The position numbers and the translations under genes were made by a program. 64,000 bases of DNA, taken from Phenylobacterium sp. GTDB taxonomy: Bacteria; Pseudomonadota; Alphaproteobacteria; Caulobacterales; Caulobacteraceae. The stretch is from assembly GCA_020402585.1 (NCBI GenBank), contig JADBZH010000031.1:1-64000 (forward strand), in the 5' to 3' direction. This document shows positions 1,314 through 32,001 of this stretch, piece after piece. Positions within the stretch are counted from its first letter, which is position 1. Every line of letters begins with the position of its first letter. The notes beneath the pieces are model-generated. The model searched no databases and was not told the DNA's origin. It was given only the letters and a program-made list of their open reading frames with translations.

Positions 1314-1895
1314 ATGCAAGCTCAGTTTACACCCCGCGAGGTCGCCGAACTTTCCGGAACTCCAAAGCGTACGGTGGAGAAGGCGATCGAAGAGAAGGTC
1401 TTCACAACGAAGATGGTGAAGCGGGGGCGTCGCCAGCGACGCATGTTGCCGGCCCATGCGGTCGCCTACGCCTTGATCGTGCGGCGCGTGAAATACCGTA
1501 TGGACGCGGCGATGAAGCGCAGGCTGGCGACGGCGCTTTCGCGCCTCGATAACGCGGAGCTCAGGACATGGCGGTTTGAGCTGGAACATGCCGTCGAGAT
1601 GGATGTCGGGCGGCTGGTGGGCGACTCGATGGAACGCGCCGAGGCCTACGGTTTCGCCCGTGACAAGCTGATCGTAGAGGACGACGACATCCTTGGCGGG
1701 ACGCCTGTGATCCGAGGCACCCGGATCAGCGTCTATTCGATCCTGGGTCGGCTTACACACGGAGACACAGTCGCGGACATACTCTCCGACTACCCGGACT
1801 TGACTGCGGAGGCCGTCGAGGCTGCGGCGATTTTTGCGCGCAGCCATCCGTTGGTCGGGCGGCCCGGCGGTCGTCCCTGGCTGGCGGCTGCGTGA
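1314..1895 (+). CDS. DUF433-domain antitoxin with N-terminal HTH-like region
   Basis: Predicted antitoxin, 193 residues. The C-terminal part (about residues 115-180; motifs DDDILGGTPVIRGTRISVYSI and ILSDYPDLTAEAVEAA) is a DUF433 domain, a helix-turn-helix fold found in VapB-like antitoxins. The N-terminal half (residues 5-60, QFTPREVAELSGTPKRTVEKAIEE) looks like a second, MerR/AlpA-like DNA-binding helix-turn-helix. Single-domain DUF433 antitoxins are usually only 70-110 residues, so this is a longer two-domain form. AGGAG lies 8 bases before the ATG. The stop overlaps the start of the next gene (GTGA), indicating translational coupling with the PIN-like partner. Confidence 0.8.
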   Translation: MQAQFTPREVAELSGTPKRTVEKAIEEKVFTTKMVKRGRRQRRMLPAHAVAYALIVRRVKYRMDAAMKRRLATALSRLDNAELRTWRFELEHAVEMDVGRLVGDSMERAEAYGFARDKLIVEDDDILGGTPVIRGTRISVYSILGRLTHGDTVADILSDYPDLTAEAVEAAAIFARSHPLVGRPGGRPWLAAA

Positions 1896-2272
1896 GGCTC
1901 TTTATCGATGAATGCCTCTCGCCGGTCCTGGCGCAACGCCTGAACGACTCAGGTCTGCACAACGCCCTTCATCCCCGCGACTATGGGCGGCTGGGCGAGC
2001 CCGATCATGTCGTGCTGCGACGCTGTGTCGACGAGAGCCGCACGATCGTCACTGAGAACGCCCGCGACTTTCGAAAGCTTGTCGGTGCAACAGAGATCCA
2101 CCCAGGCCTGATCGTCCTTCCCGCGGTAGGTCGGGAGCAATCATGGGACCTGTTGCAGGCCGCGATCGCCGCAATAGAGGCGCCGGGCGATCCGGGCCGA
2201 ACCCTGATCAACCAAGTCGTCGAAGTTACCCTCTCGGGCGAGGTCAGCTTCTACACCCTCCCGGCGCATTGA
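1892..2272 (+). CDS. DUF5615 PIN-like toxin
   Basis: Predicted toxin nuclease of 126 residues. It has the DUF5615 (Mut7-C/PIN-like) pattern: RLFIDECLSP at the N-terminus with the first acidic residues, SRTIVTENARDF near residue 50 with the second acidic site, and a HPGLIVLP strand. These proteins pair with DUF433 antitoxins in type II toxin-antitoxin modules and are presumed to cut RNA. The GTG start overlaps the antitoxin stop by four bases. RNase activity is inferred from the family; the pairing is supported by gene order. Confidence 0.8.
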   Translation: MRLFIDECLSPVLAQRLNDSGLHNALHPRDYGRLGEPDHVVLRRCVDESRTIVTENARDFRKLVGATEIHPGLIVLPAVGREQSWDLLQAAIAAIEAPGDPGRTLINQVVEVTLSGEVSFYTLPAH

Positions 2273-2382: not shown

Positions 2383-2397
2383 GTTCTACTTTTGTTC
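2383..2397 (+). promoter_or_regulatory. LexA (SOS) box upstream of the nuclease-toxin operon
   Basis: GTTCTACTTTTGTTC matches the alphaproteobacterial LexA operator GTTC-N7-GTTC perfectly. It lies 107 bases before the chosen ATG of the downstream toxin gene, within the only plausible promoter region, and 39 bases before an alternative GTG. It is the same form of box as the one before imuA in this window (31938-31952). It suggests that the toxin-immunity pair is induced by DNA damage. Confidence 0.7.
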
Positions 2398-2504
2398 GAT
2401 TCGATCGCCCCGCCTGAGTTAAGGTCGCTCCAGAGGTGAGAGCGTGCACGTGGCGGCGGCGAGCGACCAGACCAAACGTTAGACACTTTGAGAAGGGCTC
2501 AGGC

Positions 2505-3377
2505 ATGGCTGTATCCCAGCCGGCGCGCGATGACATGCGCGTCGAAGGAATTGCGGAATGGATGGAGCGGAGGCGTCGCGAGGTGGCGACGCGAAGGCGT
2601 GAGGTCGAACTCGCTGGCCGAGCTGAATGGGTGGCGGCCGGACCGGGCCAGGCGAGTTGGCCCACTGCCCGAACCCAGGTCCGGCCTGTGGCGTATCAAC
2701 CCACTCAGGGTGCAGGGAGCGCGACGCCGGCACCGACTGCAAGGCCGCGCACGGTCCAAGAAGATGAGATGACAAGGCTCAGGCGCGAACAAGCGGCCTT
2801 CAAGGAGATCGTTCGCGAGGAGTCTAGTCGCAACATCTGGATGGCGATTCCGGCCCTCGCTCCGCTCGCCGTCCCATTGCTCTCGGAAGGGGCCGCCCTG
2901 CTCGCTGGCCGGCTTGCCGCGCCCCAGATCCGTCGCTCGTCAATGAACTTCCTGCAGCAAGAAGCCGGCTTGGCGCTGAAGTCCCCACTCGCTCGACCGG
3001 GTCCGGTGGTGAGACCCTCACCCAAGCCTCGGGCAGATGCGGAAGAGAATGCAATACGCAGAGTGGCTCGCGAACGGTACGCCCGCGCTTACGGCGGTCG
3101 AGCGAGCGACTGGGCCGGGCAGGTACACCATCGCGTAGCGCTACGGTTCCGAAAACAGTTTCCGAACGCCGACCCCAACCGGCTGGCGAACCTCCAGGCA
3201 CTGGAGGAAGAGGCTCACCTCGCCGTAACACAGGCGACCGAGGCCTGGGTGAGAGGCCTGGGTCGAGCCCCTACGCAGGCCGAGGTGATGGCCCACACCT
3301 TGAGGATGGACAAACTCATCGAGCCATACATTCTGCGGGCGGGCGTTCCCCGGCCGCCGCCCGTCCCAAAACGGTAG
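2505..3377 (+). CDS. Putative HNH-type nuclease toxin (SOS-regulated bacteriocin-like)
   Basis: Protein of 290 residues that I read as a small toxin. Residues 1-110 are charged, then Pro/Ala-rich, with no cleavable signal. Residues 111-138 are a hydrophobic stretch (IWMAIPALAPLAVP onwards) that could insert into or cross a membrane. The C-terminal domain (about 185-290) has the layout of HNH/endonuclease VII-type toxin domains: QVHHRVAL (His208-His209), FPNADPNRLANLQAL with conserved Asn/Leu, then His238. The ATG at 2505 follows AGAAGGG at 7 bases; a GTG at 2436 would add 23 residues but has no good ribosome-binding site. Five bases downstream is a SUKH-type immunity gene, and a LexA box lies upstream. 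The subfamily and the delivery route are unknown. Confidence 0.6.
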   Translation: MAVSQPARDDMRVEGIAEWMERRRREVATRRREVELAGRAEWVAAGPGQASWPTARTQVRPVAYQPTQGAGSATPAPTARPRTVQEDEMTRLRREQAAFKEIVREESSRNIWMAIPALAPLAVPLLSEGAALLAGRLAAPQIRRSSMNFLQQEAGLALKSPLARPGPVVRPSPKPRADAEENAIRRVARERYARAYGGRASDWAGQVHHRVALRFRKQFPNADPNRLANLQALEEEAHLAVTQATEAWVRGLGRAPTQAEVMAHTLRMDKLIEPYILRAGVPRPPPVPKR

Positions 3378-3382
3378 CCTCG

Positions 3383-3907
3383 ATGGACATCACGGTTTCG
3401 GAAGCTTGCCGGTCACTTCAAGCGCGGGGTGCGCTTCGACGTTCAAGCAGAGACGAGGCGGAAGGCGTAATCCAGCAGGTCCGCGAACGGCTGGGCGGGA
3501 GGATGCCGGCTGACCTGGAGGCCCTGTATCGGGAACAGGTCGCCAGCATCGGCGACTTTGCAGCGATACTGCCGGAGTGGCGCGAGCGCCCGGAGTGGCG
3601 TCGCGAGGGATCGGTGGGGCTTCTTCTGCATGCAGACGCCGTGCCGATCTTCTCCGATGGATGCGGAAACTTCTATGGTCTTGATCTCGCTTCCGGAGAT
3701 CAAAGACCGGCAGTCTACTTTTTCGATTCCGAGGACATGTTCGAGCGTCCGCACTGGGCGGCGGGATCGTCGCTCGCAAGATTCTTGCTCTTGCTCGCGG
3801 AGCACGACCAGGCCCTCGATGAGGGGAGGCCGCCCGGGTGGGAGCTTTCGATCGATCCGGACATCGACAAGTGTCCCAGGGCGCCGGCTATCTGGCACGC
3901 CGGATAG
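3383..3907 (+). CDS. SMI1/KNR4 (SUKH) family immunity protein
   Basis: Predicted cytoplasmic immunity protein, 174 residues, the usual size for SUKH proteins. The hallmark pattern is present: LPADLEALY-like helix near residue 40 (MPADLEALYREQ), the GLLLHADAVPIFSDGCGNFYGLDL strand pair, a VYFFDSEDMFERPHWAAGSSLARFLLLL core, then a C-terminal helix. SUKH proteins typically neutralise nuclease toxins encoded immediately upstream, which matches the position here, 5 bases after the toxin stop. No separate ribosome-binding site is obvious, so translation is probably coupled. Confidence 0.75.
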   Translation: MDITVSEACRSLQARGALRRSSRDEAEGVIQQVRERLGGRMPADLEALYREQVASIGDFAAILPEWRERPEWRREGSVGLLLHADAVPIFSDGCGNFYGLDLASGDQRPAVYFFDSEDMFERPHWAAGSSLARFLLLLAEHDQALDEGRPPGWELSIDPDIDKCPRAPAIWHAG

Positions 3908-3945
3908 ACCCGCAGAAGGGTCCTCAGGGCGTCAGGGTTCGCAAA

Positions 3946-3966
3946 TGTCCCGAAGACGTCGGGACA
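3946..3966 (+). terminator. Hairpin after the toxin-immunity operon
   Basis: TGTCCCGA (3946-3953) and TCGGGACA (3959-3966) form a perfect 8-bp stem with a 5-base loop, followed by ATTTC. It lies 38 bases after the immunity gene stop. The short T-tract makes it a weak intrinsic terminator candidate. The rest of 3908-4117 shows no gene. Confidence 0.45.
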
Positions 3967-29630: not shown

Positions 29631-31207
29631 CCGAACAGGCCGTGCAGCCACCAGCGCACAGGCCGGTCATGGTCGTGCAGCCCCGAGCGGAAGACCCAGA
29701 AGCGCGCACCGTCCTGGTCCTCCACCCGGTAATAGTCCCGCACCTGGTCGGTCCGGACCGCCTCGATCCCGCTCCGCCACCACTCCGCGCCGATGCGCTC
29801 GGGGCCCTCGGCCAGGCGGATGCGGTGCACGCGCCGGCGCCAGCGGAACTGCCGGGGCGGCTCGTCGGGGGTCAGGGCGATCACCGCCTCCAGGGCCTCG
29901 GGGCGGGGCAGGAGGCGTAAGGGGCGGGGGCGCCAGGCGGGCCAGCTCACGGCCGGGCCGTCTCTGGCGGGACCGGCCTCCGCCCCCAGGGCGGCGGTCC
30001 GGCGCACCGAGCGTTCGGGGACATGGCTGGCCCGGGGCCGGCTGCGCCAGACCCGCCCGGGGCCCAGCCGGGCGTTCAGCCGGTCGATCAGGGGCGCCAG
30101 GGCCTCGGGTCCCTCGACGGGCTCCAGCAGGCTGGCCAGGTCGGCCTGGCCCGGGGACAGGACCTCGACCTCCGCCGCCTGCAGGCTCACCGCCTCGATC
30201 CCGAAGCCGGGGTCCAGGGTCTCCAGCCGGGGCAGGAAGAGGCGGGCGATGCGGTCCGGGTCCCGGGCGGGGCGGGACAGGCCCAGTTCCAGGCCCACGG
30301 GGGCGCCGTCAACCCGGTGGAAATCCAGGCGCAGGCGCCGGGCCCCGCGTCCGGCCGTCTCCAGCCGCGCGCAGAGGCGCAGGGCGACGTCCCGGCACAG
30401 GCGGGCCAGGTCGTCCGGCGCGCTCACCGGCTCGGCCAGGTCCAGCCGGGCGAACCAGGGGGTGGGCGGACGGCGGAAGGCCAGGGCCTCGGGCGCCCGG
30501 CCCAGGGTCTGGTCCAGGCGCAGCAGGACCCTGCCGCCGAAGCGCCTGGCCAGAGGGCCGCGGGGCAGGGCGGCCAGCTGGCCGATCCGCCTCAGGCCCA
30601 GCCGGGAGAGCTGCGCCGCCGCCGCGGGCTCCAGCCGCAGGGCTGTCAGCGGCAGTCCGGCCAGCTCCGGCGGCGGGGGCGACGCCTCCCGCCCGTCAGG
30701 ATCCCAGGGGGCCAGGACCTGCGGTCCCGCCTCCGCCGCCGGGCTCCGCGCCAGGGCCCAGGCCGCTCCGGCCGCGTCGGCCACGGCGATCCGGGCGGTC
30801 AGGCCGTCCCTCGCCAGGCGGGCGGCCAGGTCAGCGGCCATCTCCGCCTCGCCGCCCCACAGGTGGGCGACCCCGCCGATGTCGAGGAACAGGCCGTCCG
30901 GCGGGTCGGGGGCGACGGCGGGGGAAAAGCGCACGCACCAGTCGGCCAGGGCCTCCAGGGCCCGGGCGTCGGCTTCCGGCTCGGCCTCGGCCAGGACCAG
31001 GTCAGGCCGCAGGGCCTGGGCGTCGGTCACCCTCTGGCCGGAGAAGAGGCCCGCGGCGGCGGCCTGCGGGCTGACGGCGGTCAGCACCCTCAGTCCGCGA
31101 TCCGGTCCGACCAGGGCGAAGGGTTCAACCTGCGGCGCTGAGGGCCGCCGGCGCCGCCAGGTCTCGATCGCCCAGTTCGGCGACCAGACGCAGAGGATGC
31201 GCGACAT
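29627..31207 (-). CDS. imuB: ImuB, inactive Y-family polymerase-like protein
   Basis: Y-family-like protein of 526 residues that bridges DnaE2 to the beta clamp. It starts [17 protein letters not shown] where true Y-polymerases have the catalytic acidic motif, so the polymerase site is degenerate, as known for ImuB. The palm/finger region (residues about 5-230) contains [16 protein letters not shown]; the little-finger and C-terminal parts follow, ending [19 protein letters not shown]... [17 protein letters not shown]. It overlaps imuA by 83 bases and dnaE2 by 4. Confidence 0.94.
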
Positions 31208-31925
31208 CGGCTTCTCCCTCGTCTCCGCGTGCGCCGGCCTCCACGCTCCAGGCGCCGGTCCGGCCGCCCCGGCCGCGGGTCAGGCGCAGGCGCCAGCGGG
31301 GCGGTCCCAGGCCCAGTTCACCCGGATTGGGCGCGCTGGCCGCCGGCGACACCCGCCAGCAGGTGGCCGCCGCCGTGCCGCCCGACGTCCCCGCCGCCGC
31401 CCCGCCGAAGGGCCGCCGCAGGATCACCAGCCCCGTGCCGCCCCGCGCCTCGCAGGCCAGCTGCAGGCGCCGCCCGGCAGTCAGGTCCACGGCGCCGACC
31501 TCGGCCAGCACCACCCCGACGCCGGGAGAGGCCAGGGCGTCCTCGGCGACGGCCAGGGCCTCGGCCTCGTCCCGGGCGCAGACCCCCACCAGCCGGTCCG
31601 CCGGCAGGCCCAGCTCCGCCAGGCCGGGGGGGAAGAGGTCGTCGCGGCGCAGGATCCAGACGGCCGAGCGGCCGCGCTGGTCCGGCCGGGCCAGCAGGGC
31701 GGCGGCCAGCCGGGCGGCGAAGGCGGCGGGGGCGGCGCAGGTCTCGGCCTCGATGCCCTCGCCGCCGATCTCGTGCCACTGGCCCAGGGCCAGGCCCCCG
31801 CCCAGGGCCGAATCCAGGCGCAGATCGCCCAGGGACAGCCGCCCCCGCGCCGGTCCCGTCCACCGCTCCAGCCGCCGGATGTCCGCCCGCAGCGTCGCCA
31901 GCCTGTTCCGCCTGTCCCCGTCCAT
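31125..31925 (-). CDS. imuA: ImuA, RecA-like accessory protein of mutasome
   Basis: RecA-fold relative of 266 residues acting with ImuB and DnaE2 in damage-induced mutagenesis. It contains LDSALGGGLALGQWHEIGGEG, WILRRDDLFPPGLAELGLPADRLVGVCARDEAEALAVAEDAL, and RRLQLACEARGGTGLVILRRPF; a strict Walker A is absent, as usual for ImuA. The ATG at 31925 lies just downstream of a perfect LexA box (31938-31952). The 3' end overlaps imuB by 83 bases. Confidence 0.9.
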   Translation of the reverse strand: MDGDRRNRLATLRADIRRLERWTGPARGRLSLGDLRLDSALGGGLALGQWHEIGGEGIEAETCAAPAAFAARLAAALLARPDQRGRSAVWILRRDDLFPPGLAELGLPADRLVGVCARDEAEALAVAEDALASPGVGVVLAEVGAVDLTAGRRLQLACEARGGTGLVILRRPFGGAAAGTSGGTAAATCWRVSPAASAPNPGELGLGPPRWRLRLTRGRGGRTGAWSVEAGARGDEGEADVAHPLRLVAELGDRDLAAPAALSAAG

Positions 31926-31937
31926 GCCCGACCTCGT

Positions 31938-31952
31938 GTTCGCTTTTTGTTC
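31938..31952 (-). promoter_or_regulatory. LexA (SOS) box of imuA-imuB-dnaE2
   Basis: GTTCGCTTTTTGTTC on the plus strand is a perfect GTTC-N7-GTTC operator, 12 bases before the imuA ATG. LexA bound there would block imuA transcription or initiation. Promoters of this operon are known SOS targets in Caulobacter. Confidence 0.88.
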
Positions 31953-32001
31953 TAGTCCAGGCGAACAGGGAGTCAATGGCCTCCCGGGAGGGGGTGAAGG
32001 A

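Follow-up and report, generated by a model that had tools for sequence, protein, structure and literature searches.

The stretch analysed here, referred to as the window, comprises the first 64 kb of contig C66 (74,760 bases) in a 2.85 Mb Phenylobacterium genome, and contains near its left end a putative SOS-controlled operon of two genes, predicted to encode a nuclease-like toxin and its immunity protein. The operon is preceded by a LexA (SOS) box of the form GTTC-N7-GTTC (GTTCTACTTTTGTTC; 2383–2397, forward strand, as are all features of the operon), identified by a motif scan and by its conservation upstream of related loci; the window's copy reads TTTGTTCGATTC. The toxin gene (2505–3377), defined by open reading frame (ORF) reading, family searches, and alignment, encodes 290 residues. 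An alternative in-frame GTG at 2436 would give a 313 residue toxin; the ATG at 2505 is preferred because close homologues have the common start MAxxQxARDD. The predicted protein begins with a helix motif, DMRVEGIAEWMERRRRE (residues 11–27; 2535–2585), which in profile comparisons resembles the C-terminal tail of a P22-like scaffold protein. This is followed by a conserved middle domain common to the toxin types described below (2757–2963, defined by profile A1), with a helix and a hydrophobic segment (WMAIPALAPLAV...), the hydrophobic stretch spanning residues 111–138 (2835–2918), and by a C-terminal HNH-like nuclease domain (residues 175–278; 3027–3338), assigned from PHROG matches and invariant residues. 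The SUKH-1 immunity gene (174 residues; 3383–3907) starts 5 bases past the toxin stop and is followed by a hairpin (3946–3966; TGTCCCGA-5-TCGGGACA, then ATTT) with a perfect 8 bp stem (3946–3953 pairing with 3959–3966, ATTTCT next). The z-score of the 86-nt fold at the hairpin is −1.55, equalled by 15 of 200 shuffles; the hairpin is terminator-like, not strong. The box, the 290 residue protein with its hydrophobic stretch and its residues His208-His209 and His238, the SUKH gene 5 bases on, and the terminator-like hairpin had all been described in an initial annotation, made from the DNA sequence alone, and are as described there.

Members of the toxin family were examined at 39 loci (38 fetched, plus the window), several of which are fragments. 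A strict GTTCN7GTTC box lies 95–700 bases upstream of the matched domain in 27/39 of these loci, a count that excludes L083, where the spacer of the strict match is GC-rich, and a GTTCN7GTTT near-box is present upstream in three further loci. L092 has a one-base variant of the box, and the boxes of L108 lie further upstream, before a scaffold gene; no box was found upstream in L079, L080, L084, L104, L110, and L114, some of these loci being fragments. The background in the flanks is 13 strict boxes per 258 kb on both strands (~0.025 per kb and strand). The window as a whole has five strict boxes versus 1.3 expected, a number reached by 4 of 100 shuffles, and its single box at the toxin gene is, taken alone, weak and near chance; the box is accepted as real because of its conservation across the family against a low background. 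When extended, 20/27 strict boxes read TTTGTTCTTG and 9/27 GTTCTTGAC, and the LexA box of family loci can, as judged from these sequences, overlap a −35-like element. A lexA gene is present in the window's genome. The survey of homologues thus supports the LexA-type (SOS) control of the toxin operon proposed in the initial annotation. Elsewhere in the window, an ImuA-like gene (31125–31976, reverse strand; NCBIfam E = 7e-12, below the model's cut-off) whose start bears a LexA-type box (31938–31952) is probably a second SOS gene, and a DUF433 and DUF5615 (PIN-like) gene pair recognized by Pfam just upstream of the operon (1314–2272, forward strand) is a probable toxin-antitoxin module.

Sequence comparisons place the window protein in a predicted polymorphic toxin family with a constant front and an exchanged end, a feature that, like the scaffold likeness of the N-terminus, was not visible without computational tools. 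Matches to the 290 residue protein occur in 27/299 genomes drawn evenly from the bacterial family (Caulobacteraceae), the window's own counted, and include four genera other than Phenylobacterium; many of them are limited to about residues 50–158. Profile A1, built from 22 sequences of the shared middle part of the toxins, matches in 30/101 genomes of Phenylobacterium and gives five matches in 398 genomes of the order, all in this genus. Behind the common middle domain, the 39 loci have HNH-like ends, as in the window protein, PD-(D/E)xK-like ends, or a third type seen once. No Pfam or NCBIfam model matched the 290 residue protein, no Pfam, NCBIfam, or PADLOC model matched the front part, and a PADLOC search gave nothing of weight. 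Sequence searches of the PDB were without matches of weight (best E = 0.85 for the window toxin; 0.38 and none for two alignments). Among phage records there was one weak match over 77 residues (E = 0.1), plasmid records gave no match to the toxin, and an IMG/VR search with the middle domain gave no confirmed match. Comparison of contexts revealed no common insertion site of the family loci, and tRNA genes are present in 8 of the 23 loci scanned. In our searches of the open-access literature, no paper describing the family by title or abstract was seen.

The C terminus of the window toxin is probably a nuclease-like, HNH-type end. Residues His208, His209, Pro224, Asn225, Asn229, and His238 are invariant in 12/12 aligned members, the window protein included, and a PHROG HNH endonuclease matches residues 183–272 of the window protein (E = 0.0019); the best toxin member reaches E = 2e-4 with the PHROG HNH family, which matches two of the 12 members. 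Alignment of the window toxin model by VIA-align returned helical pieces of unrelated proteins, with Z up to 6.3. The HNH assignment rests on the invariant residues and the weak PHROG matches because the HNH-type model is poor. By its residues and predicted fold, the sister toxin end is identified as a PD-(D/E)xK (restriction endonuclease [REase]-type) nuclease: Pro232, Asp233, Glu251, and Lys253 are invariant in 14 members, and the predicted local distance difference test (pLDDT) score is about 90 for the end and 68.5 as a mean over the whole model. The nearest solved folds are SSO0001, Card1, Cas4, TnsA, and Exo5, with Foldseek probabilities of up to 1.00 and a best E of 0.005, none being at 0.001 or lower.

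The product of the window's SUKH gene matches Pfam SMI1_KNR4 (SUKH-1; E = 1.3e-7, 32.7 bits versus a cut-off of 25.4), and a neighbour gene at one typical REase-type locus encodes a Pfam DUF4304 protein (E = 3e-10). The pairing of immunity types with toxin ends was scored at the 35 HNH- or REase-type loci by sequence signatures chosen from alignments. The SUKH signature is present at 17/19 HNH-type loci; the remaining two are L111, where an ORF looks SUKH-like by eye, and L112, which is truncated at the contig end. The DUF4304 signature is present at 12/16 REase-type loci, L088 has DUF4304 by Pfam, and L102, L107, and L113 are without an assigned immunity type. Overall, the expected signature is found in 29/35 loci and crossed pairs in 0/35. 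The immunity gene overlaps or adjoins the toxin gene in most family loci, and no third conserved gene adjoining the toxin was seen among the 39. These results support the view that immunity type follows toxin end, as would be expected of the toxin and immunity pair that the initial annotation had postulated.

On this basis we propose, with a probability of roughly 0.7, that the operon represents a polymorphic toxin cassette induced by the SOS response, encoding a putative effector against related cells together with a matched immunity protein. DNA damage would lead to cleavage of LexA, upon which the toxin and the SUKH protein would be made together, the latter protecting the producer. The toxin would reach related cells, where its HNH-like domain would cut nucleic acid unless the same immunity is carried.

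A candidate route of delivery is suggested by the N-terminal helix. The closest toxins start with MAGxQxARDDxRxEGIAEWMERRRREV, and the scaffold proteins of a P22-like element in the same genus have C-terminal tails such as VRDELGTKEWMRRRNDQ. We built a profile from 13 toxin N-termini, with no scaffold and leaving out N-termini of other types, and compared it with 10,806 frames of the fetched loci, of which 32 are scaffold frames and 42, from toxins, were excluded from the ranking. Among the roughly 10,760 non-toxin frames, scaffold C-termini filled 6 of the top 10 ranks; of 74 column-shuffled profiles, none placed more than two scaffolds in the top 10 and none gave an equally good first rank. 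Conversely, for the core of the scaffold tail, the window protein scores above all 1,016 controls (0/1,016 reach its score). The motif is short and the members are not independent, so that the resemblance of the toxin N-terminal helix to the scaffold tail, which counts as one observation, is suggestive. In P22, according to the available text of PMC9962691, the basic C-terminal tail of the scaffold binds coat and serves as a tag for foreign cargo. Similar N-termini with other ends occur in further LexA-box proteins in or to the left of the element in genomes G088, G615, and G619 (N-terminal profile E = 0.14 for G619 and 3.2 for one G088 protein, the remaining likenesses being by eye). The G619 gene (L185, about 2420–3000), found with its LexA box on the element's left side, joins a toxin-like N-terminus to a serum amyloid A domain at the C terminus (PF00277, E = 4e-26). 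Another SOS-controlled toxin-like family, with the start GQPRSVPDP or similar (starts of L235 [reverse strand], L248 [reverse strand], and L250, and L089 from 2270 onward), has a histidine-rich end, with an HH motif in L235 and L248, and shares its N-terminus with some REase-type toxins.

The P22-like element, a LexA-controlled prophage element covered by loci L116, L179–L198, and L203–L222, is widespread in the genus: its scaffold is found in 43/101 and its coat in 46/101 genomes, nearly always in single copy (45/101 with a PHROG profile). The element looks long inherited, because in 10 of 12 compared regions it occupies the same chromosomal site, with identical right-hand neighbours (by eye murA, hisD, infA, maf, and rng). 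No integrase was seen by eye among the gene clusters common to at least four compared genomes, which is not proof of absence. In the element core, defined as reaching from 9 kb before the scaffold to 1 kb beyond the coat in 21 elements (235 kb), strict LexA boxes number 50 in the sense direction versus one antisense, and in 14/21 elements a box lies at most 450 bases from the scaffold match or at most 650 bases before a portal motif. Between scaffold and coat lie 47 to 1,869 bases, which in some elements contain ORFs for toxin-like and membrane proteins. The window's genome has such an element on contig C132, with TerL, portal, scaffold, and coat; a box precedes the scaffold match by 160 nt. 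In G607, the start of a family toxin gene overlaps the stop of the scaffold gene, the coat gene coming after the next ORF; these neighbours match a PHROG head scaffolding protein (E = 9e-27) and a PHROG major head protein (E = 3e-81). The left edge of the element in G615 bears a toxin gene with its SUKH gene, 1.2 kb upstream of TerL; in a comparable position, G128 has a LexA box followed by a SUKH gene. The left of the element also has a gene for an S24-type repressor (Pfam Peptidase_S24) and two small genes, which we take to be reminiscent of RogA and GafYZ of the Caulobacter gene transfer agent.

In the coat-less toxin carriers G160, G172, G253, and G051, the promoter pattern GTTCN4TTTGTTCTTG occurs at 24 sites, versus one for a reversed control. 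As classed by eye, four of these sites precede family toxins, five precede other toxin-like genes, some of them with similar N-termini (also by eye), seven precede small-terminase-like genes, and eight precede other genes or none. What remains at the usual site of the element in G051 is TerS with lysis genes and a shortened TerL; this single case is consistent with a particle having been lost while the toxin stayed. The small-terminase-like genes behind a LexA box (L253, 267–986, and the starts of L254 [reverse strand], L255 [reverse strand], L256, L257 [reverse strand], and L258 [reverse strand]) belong to G160, G172, and G253 and sit before seemingly ordinary chromosomal genes. Pfam identified the single one tested as Sf6 TerS-like (PF20901, E = 1e-32), the others being classed by eye; such orphan SOS-controlled TerS genes could steer packaging.

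We tentatively prefer, as the single most likely route for the toxin though one less likely than not, its carriage as capsid cargo of the P22-like particle, because the toxin has a scaffold-like helix, one family toxin lies inside such an element and another at an edge, and the element is present in the window's genome. The N-terminal helix would mimic the coat-binding scaffold tail of the LexA-controlled particle in the same cells, and the toxin would be loaded into the capsid, leave upon lysis, and pass by ejection into a further cell, whose inner membrane it may cross with the help of the hydrophobic segment. A broader and more speculative possibility is that Phenylobacterium keeps the long-inherited particle as an open platform for delivering exchangeable toxins, with cassettes scattered over the chromosome, each having its own LexA promoter and immunity gene, a scaffold-tail encapsulation tag, loading in trans, and orphan TerS for the packaging of matching DNA. 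If so, a short encapsulation tag would link SOS-controlled bacteriocins, polymorphic toxins, and domesticated phage particles, and a toxin gene outside any phage could still use a phage particle.

Several observations weigh against these proposals. With respect to the nuclease, no Pfam HNH model matched in the 12 members, the HNH-type model has a mean pLDDT of 57, and its fold search was without a clear match; the HNH-like end of the initial annotation therefore stands by its invariant His-His, Asn, and His residues and the PHROG match, and the fold check did not confirm it. With respect to SOS control, 8/39 family loci lack a box or near-box at the expected place, and the window box lacks the TTG that follows the box in 20/27 loci. 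With respect to the helix, the score of the window protein over the full 17 residue scaffold tail is reached by 7/1,016 controls, even the core goes unmatched in 6/18 toxin N-termini (p > 0.06), and the six N-termini of other types are absent from the 13-member profile. With respect to the particle, just one of the 39 loci lies inside an element and one at an edge, and the toxin carriers G160, G172, G152, and G253 (completeness 93–100) have no such coat. Toxin and element occur independently across the 101 genomes (scaffold in 13/30 toxin genomes versus 30/71 others; Fisher p = 1.0), which speaks against the idea that the toxin strictly depends on the element, and the idea is rejected. Because the two do not co-occur beyond chance, the capsid route is unproven.

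An alternative, possible though in our judgement doubtful, is a colicin-like bacteriocin, released by the lysis of some SOS-induced cells and entering related cells by itself, via a flexible N-terminus (Tol/Ton-type import) and the hydrophobic segment. LexA-type control of a nuclease-like toxin with immunity, the low-confidence, proline-rich N-terminal region with its hydrophobic segment, and the retention of toxins in genomes without the P22-like element would all be consistent with this. However, no receptor-binding domain was matched in Pfam, NCBIfam, or PDB sequences (a weak point, since the domain may be an unfamiliar one), no small ORF resembling a lysis lipoprotein lies downstream (lipobox-like matches at 3/39 loci all fall within the immunity gene region), and the scaffold-like helix and the in-phage copy would be left unexplained. 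A selfish mobile cassette, kept by addiction and not delivered at all, its LexA promoter and phage location being relics of spread by prophages, is unlikely. It would account for the differing contexts (mostly ordinary chromosomal genes by eye, among the contexts listed), the broken copies among the loci, and the tandem cassettes of G289, each of which lies behind a tRNA-Leu copy; the SOS-type promoter nevertheless persists across great sequence divergence, and to our knowledge SUKH and DUF4304 proteins are not labile antitoxins. In G289 (L089, 2176–3676), a tRNA-Leu(CAA) copy immediately precedes each of the two SOS toxin-like cassettes, an arrangement resembling insertion accompanied by tRNA duplication.

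A self-killing device, also considered in the initial annotation, would be, like Caulobacter BapE, a nuclease cutting the producer's own DNA after severe damage; we regard this as improbable. LexA-type control would suit it, and bapE is induced late and said to promote damage-induced apoptosis (available text of PMC12700426). The immunity gene that accompanies the toxin at most loci argues against simple self-killing, as does the joint change of ends and immunities, which is as in interbacterial conflict; an interbacterial effector is favoured over a suicide device because the ends are exchanged with matched immunity and no mixed pair was found. BapE is, like the predicted toxin, an SOS-induced nuclease of the same bacterial family, but kinship between the two found no support: the best tblastn match at the locus with the bapE promoter, where the bapE frame itself was not identified, has E = 0.95. 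A type VI secretion effector is least probable of all, to the point of being negligible. SUKH-paired toxins are listed as cargo of this system among other routes (available text of PMC3482391); however, VipA/TssB was found in just 1/101 genomes of the genus (G608), a genome outside the 30 toxin carriers, and at the sensitivity of this search such delivery is rejected for the carriers.

Nuclease colicins and pyocins combine a LexA-controlled nuclease with an adjoining immunity gene. The window toxin, as read from its sequence, likewise has a LexA-type box, a nuclease-like end, and adjoining immunity, but is 290 residues long, without a matched receptor-binding domain or a lysis gene in sight, and with an immunity protein of another family. 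Exchangeable C-terminal toxin domains and adjoining SUKH immunity are shared with the SUKH polymorphic toxins as presented in the available part of PMC3482391, from which the present family differs by its unmatched front part and by an SOS promoter as a family trait. The Bxa prophage-encoded toxins resemble it in being antibacterial prophage toxins with immunity proteins and a common N-terminal domain; by description, Bxa is set apart as an ADP-ribosyltransferase of Bacteroides (available part of PMC11699363).

The scaffold C terminus of P22 (PMC9962691, in the part available) is a short basic helical tail comparable to the helix described here. The P22 tail is C-terminal and coat binding, whereas the similar helix is at the toxin N-terminus, the apparent likeness being one of sequence; this likeness between a toxin N-terminal helix and the scaffold tail of a P22-like, LexA-controlled element is new. 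The closest parallel in delivery may be the MuF polymorphic toxins, which are tied to head genes of temperate phages and for which packaging into heads and delivery to bacteria have been proposed (PMC5576092; the system was proposed in PMC3482391; both as far as available). Both are polymorphic toxins linked to phage head genes. In contrast to the MuF toxins, the window toxin has no MuF domain (no Pfam family up to E = 10), the shared part being a short scaffold-tail-like helix and a hydrophobic domain; in the regions fetched, 37/39 loci are neither in nor beside a P22-like element; and most loci carry a LexA-type promoter of their own. MuF toxins occur mainly in Firmicutes, the present family in Caulobacteraceae. 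Delivery by MuF heads is proposed, without demonstration, in the available text of PMC5576092 and PMC3482391; for the present family, a candidate tag, a coat, and a promoter can all be named.

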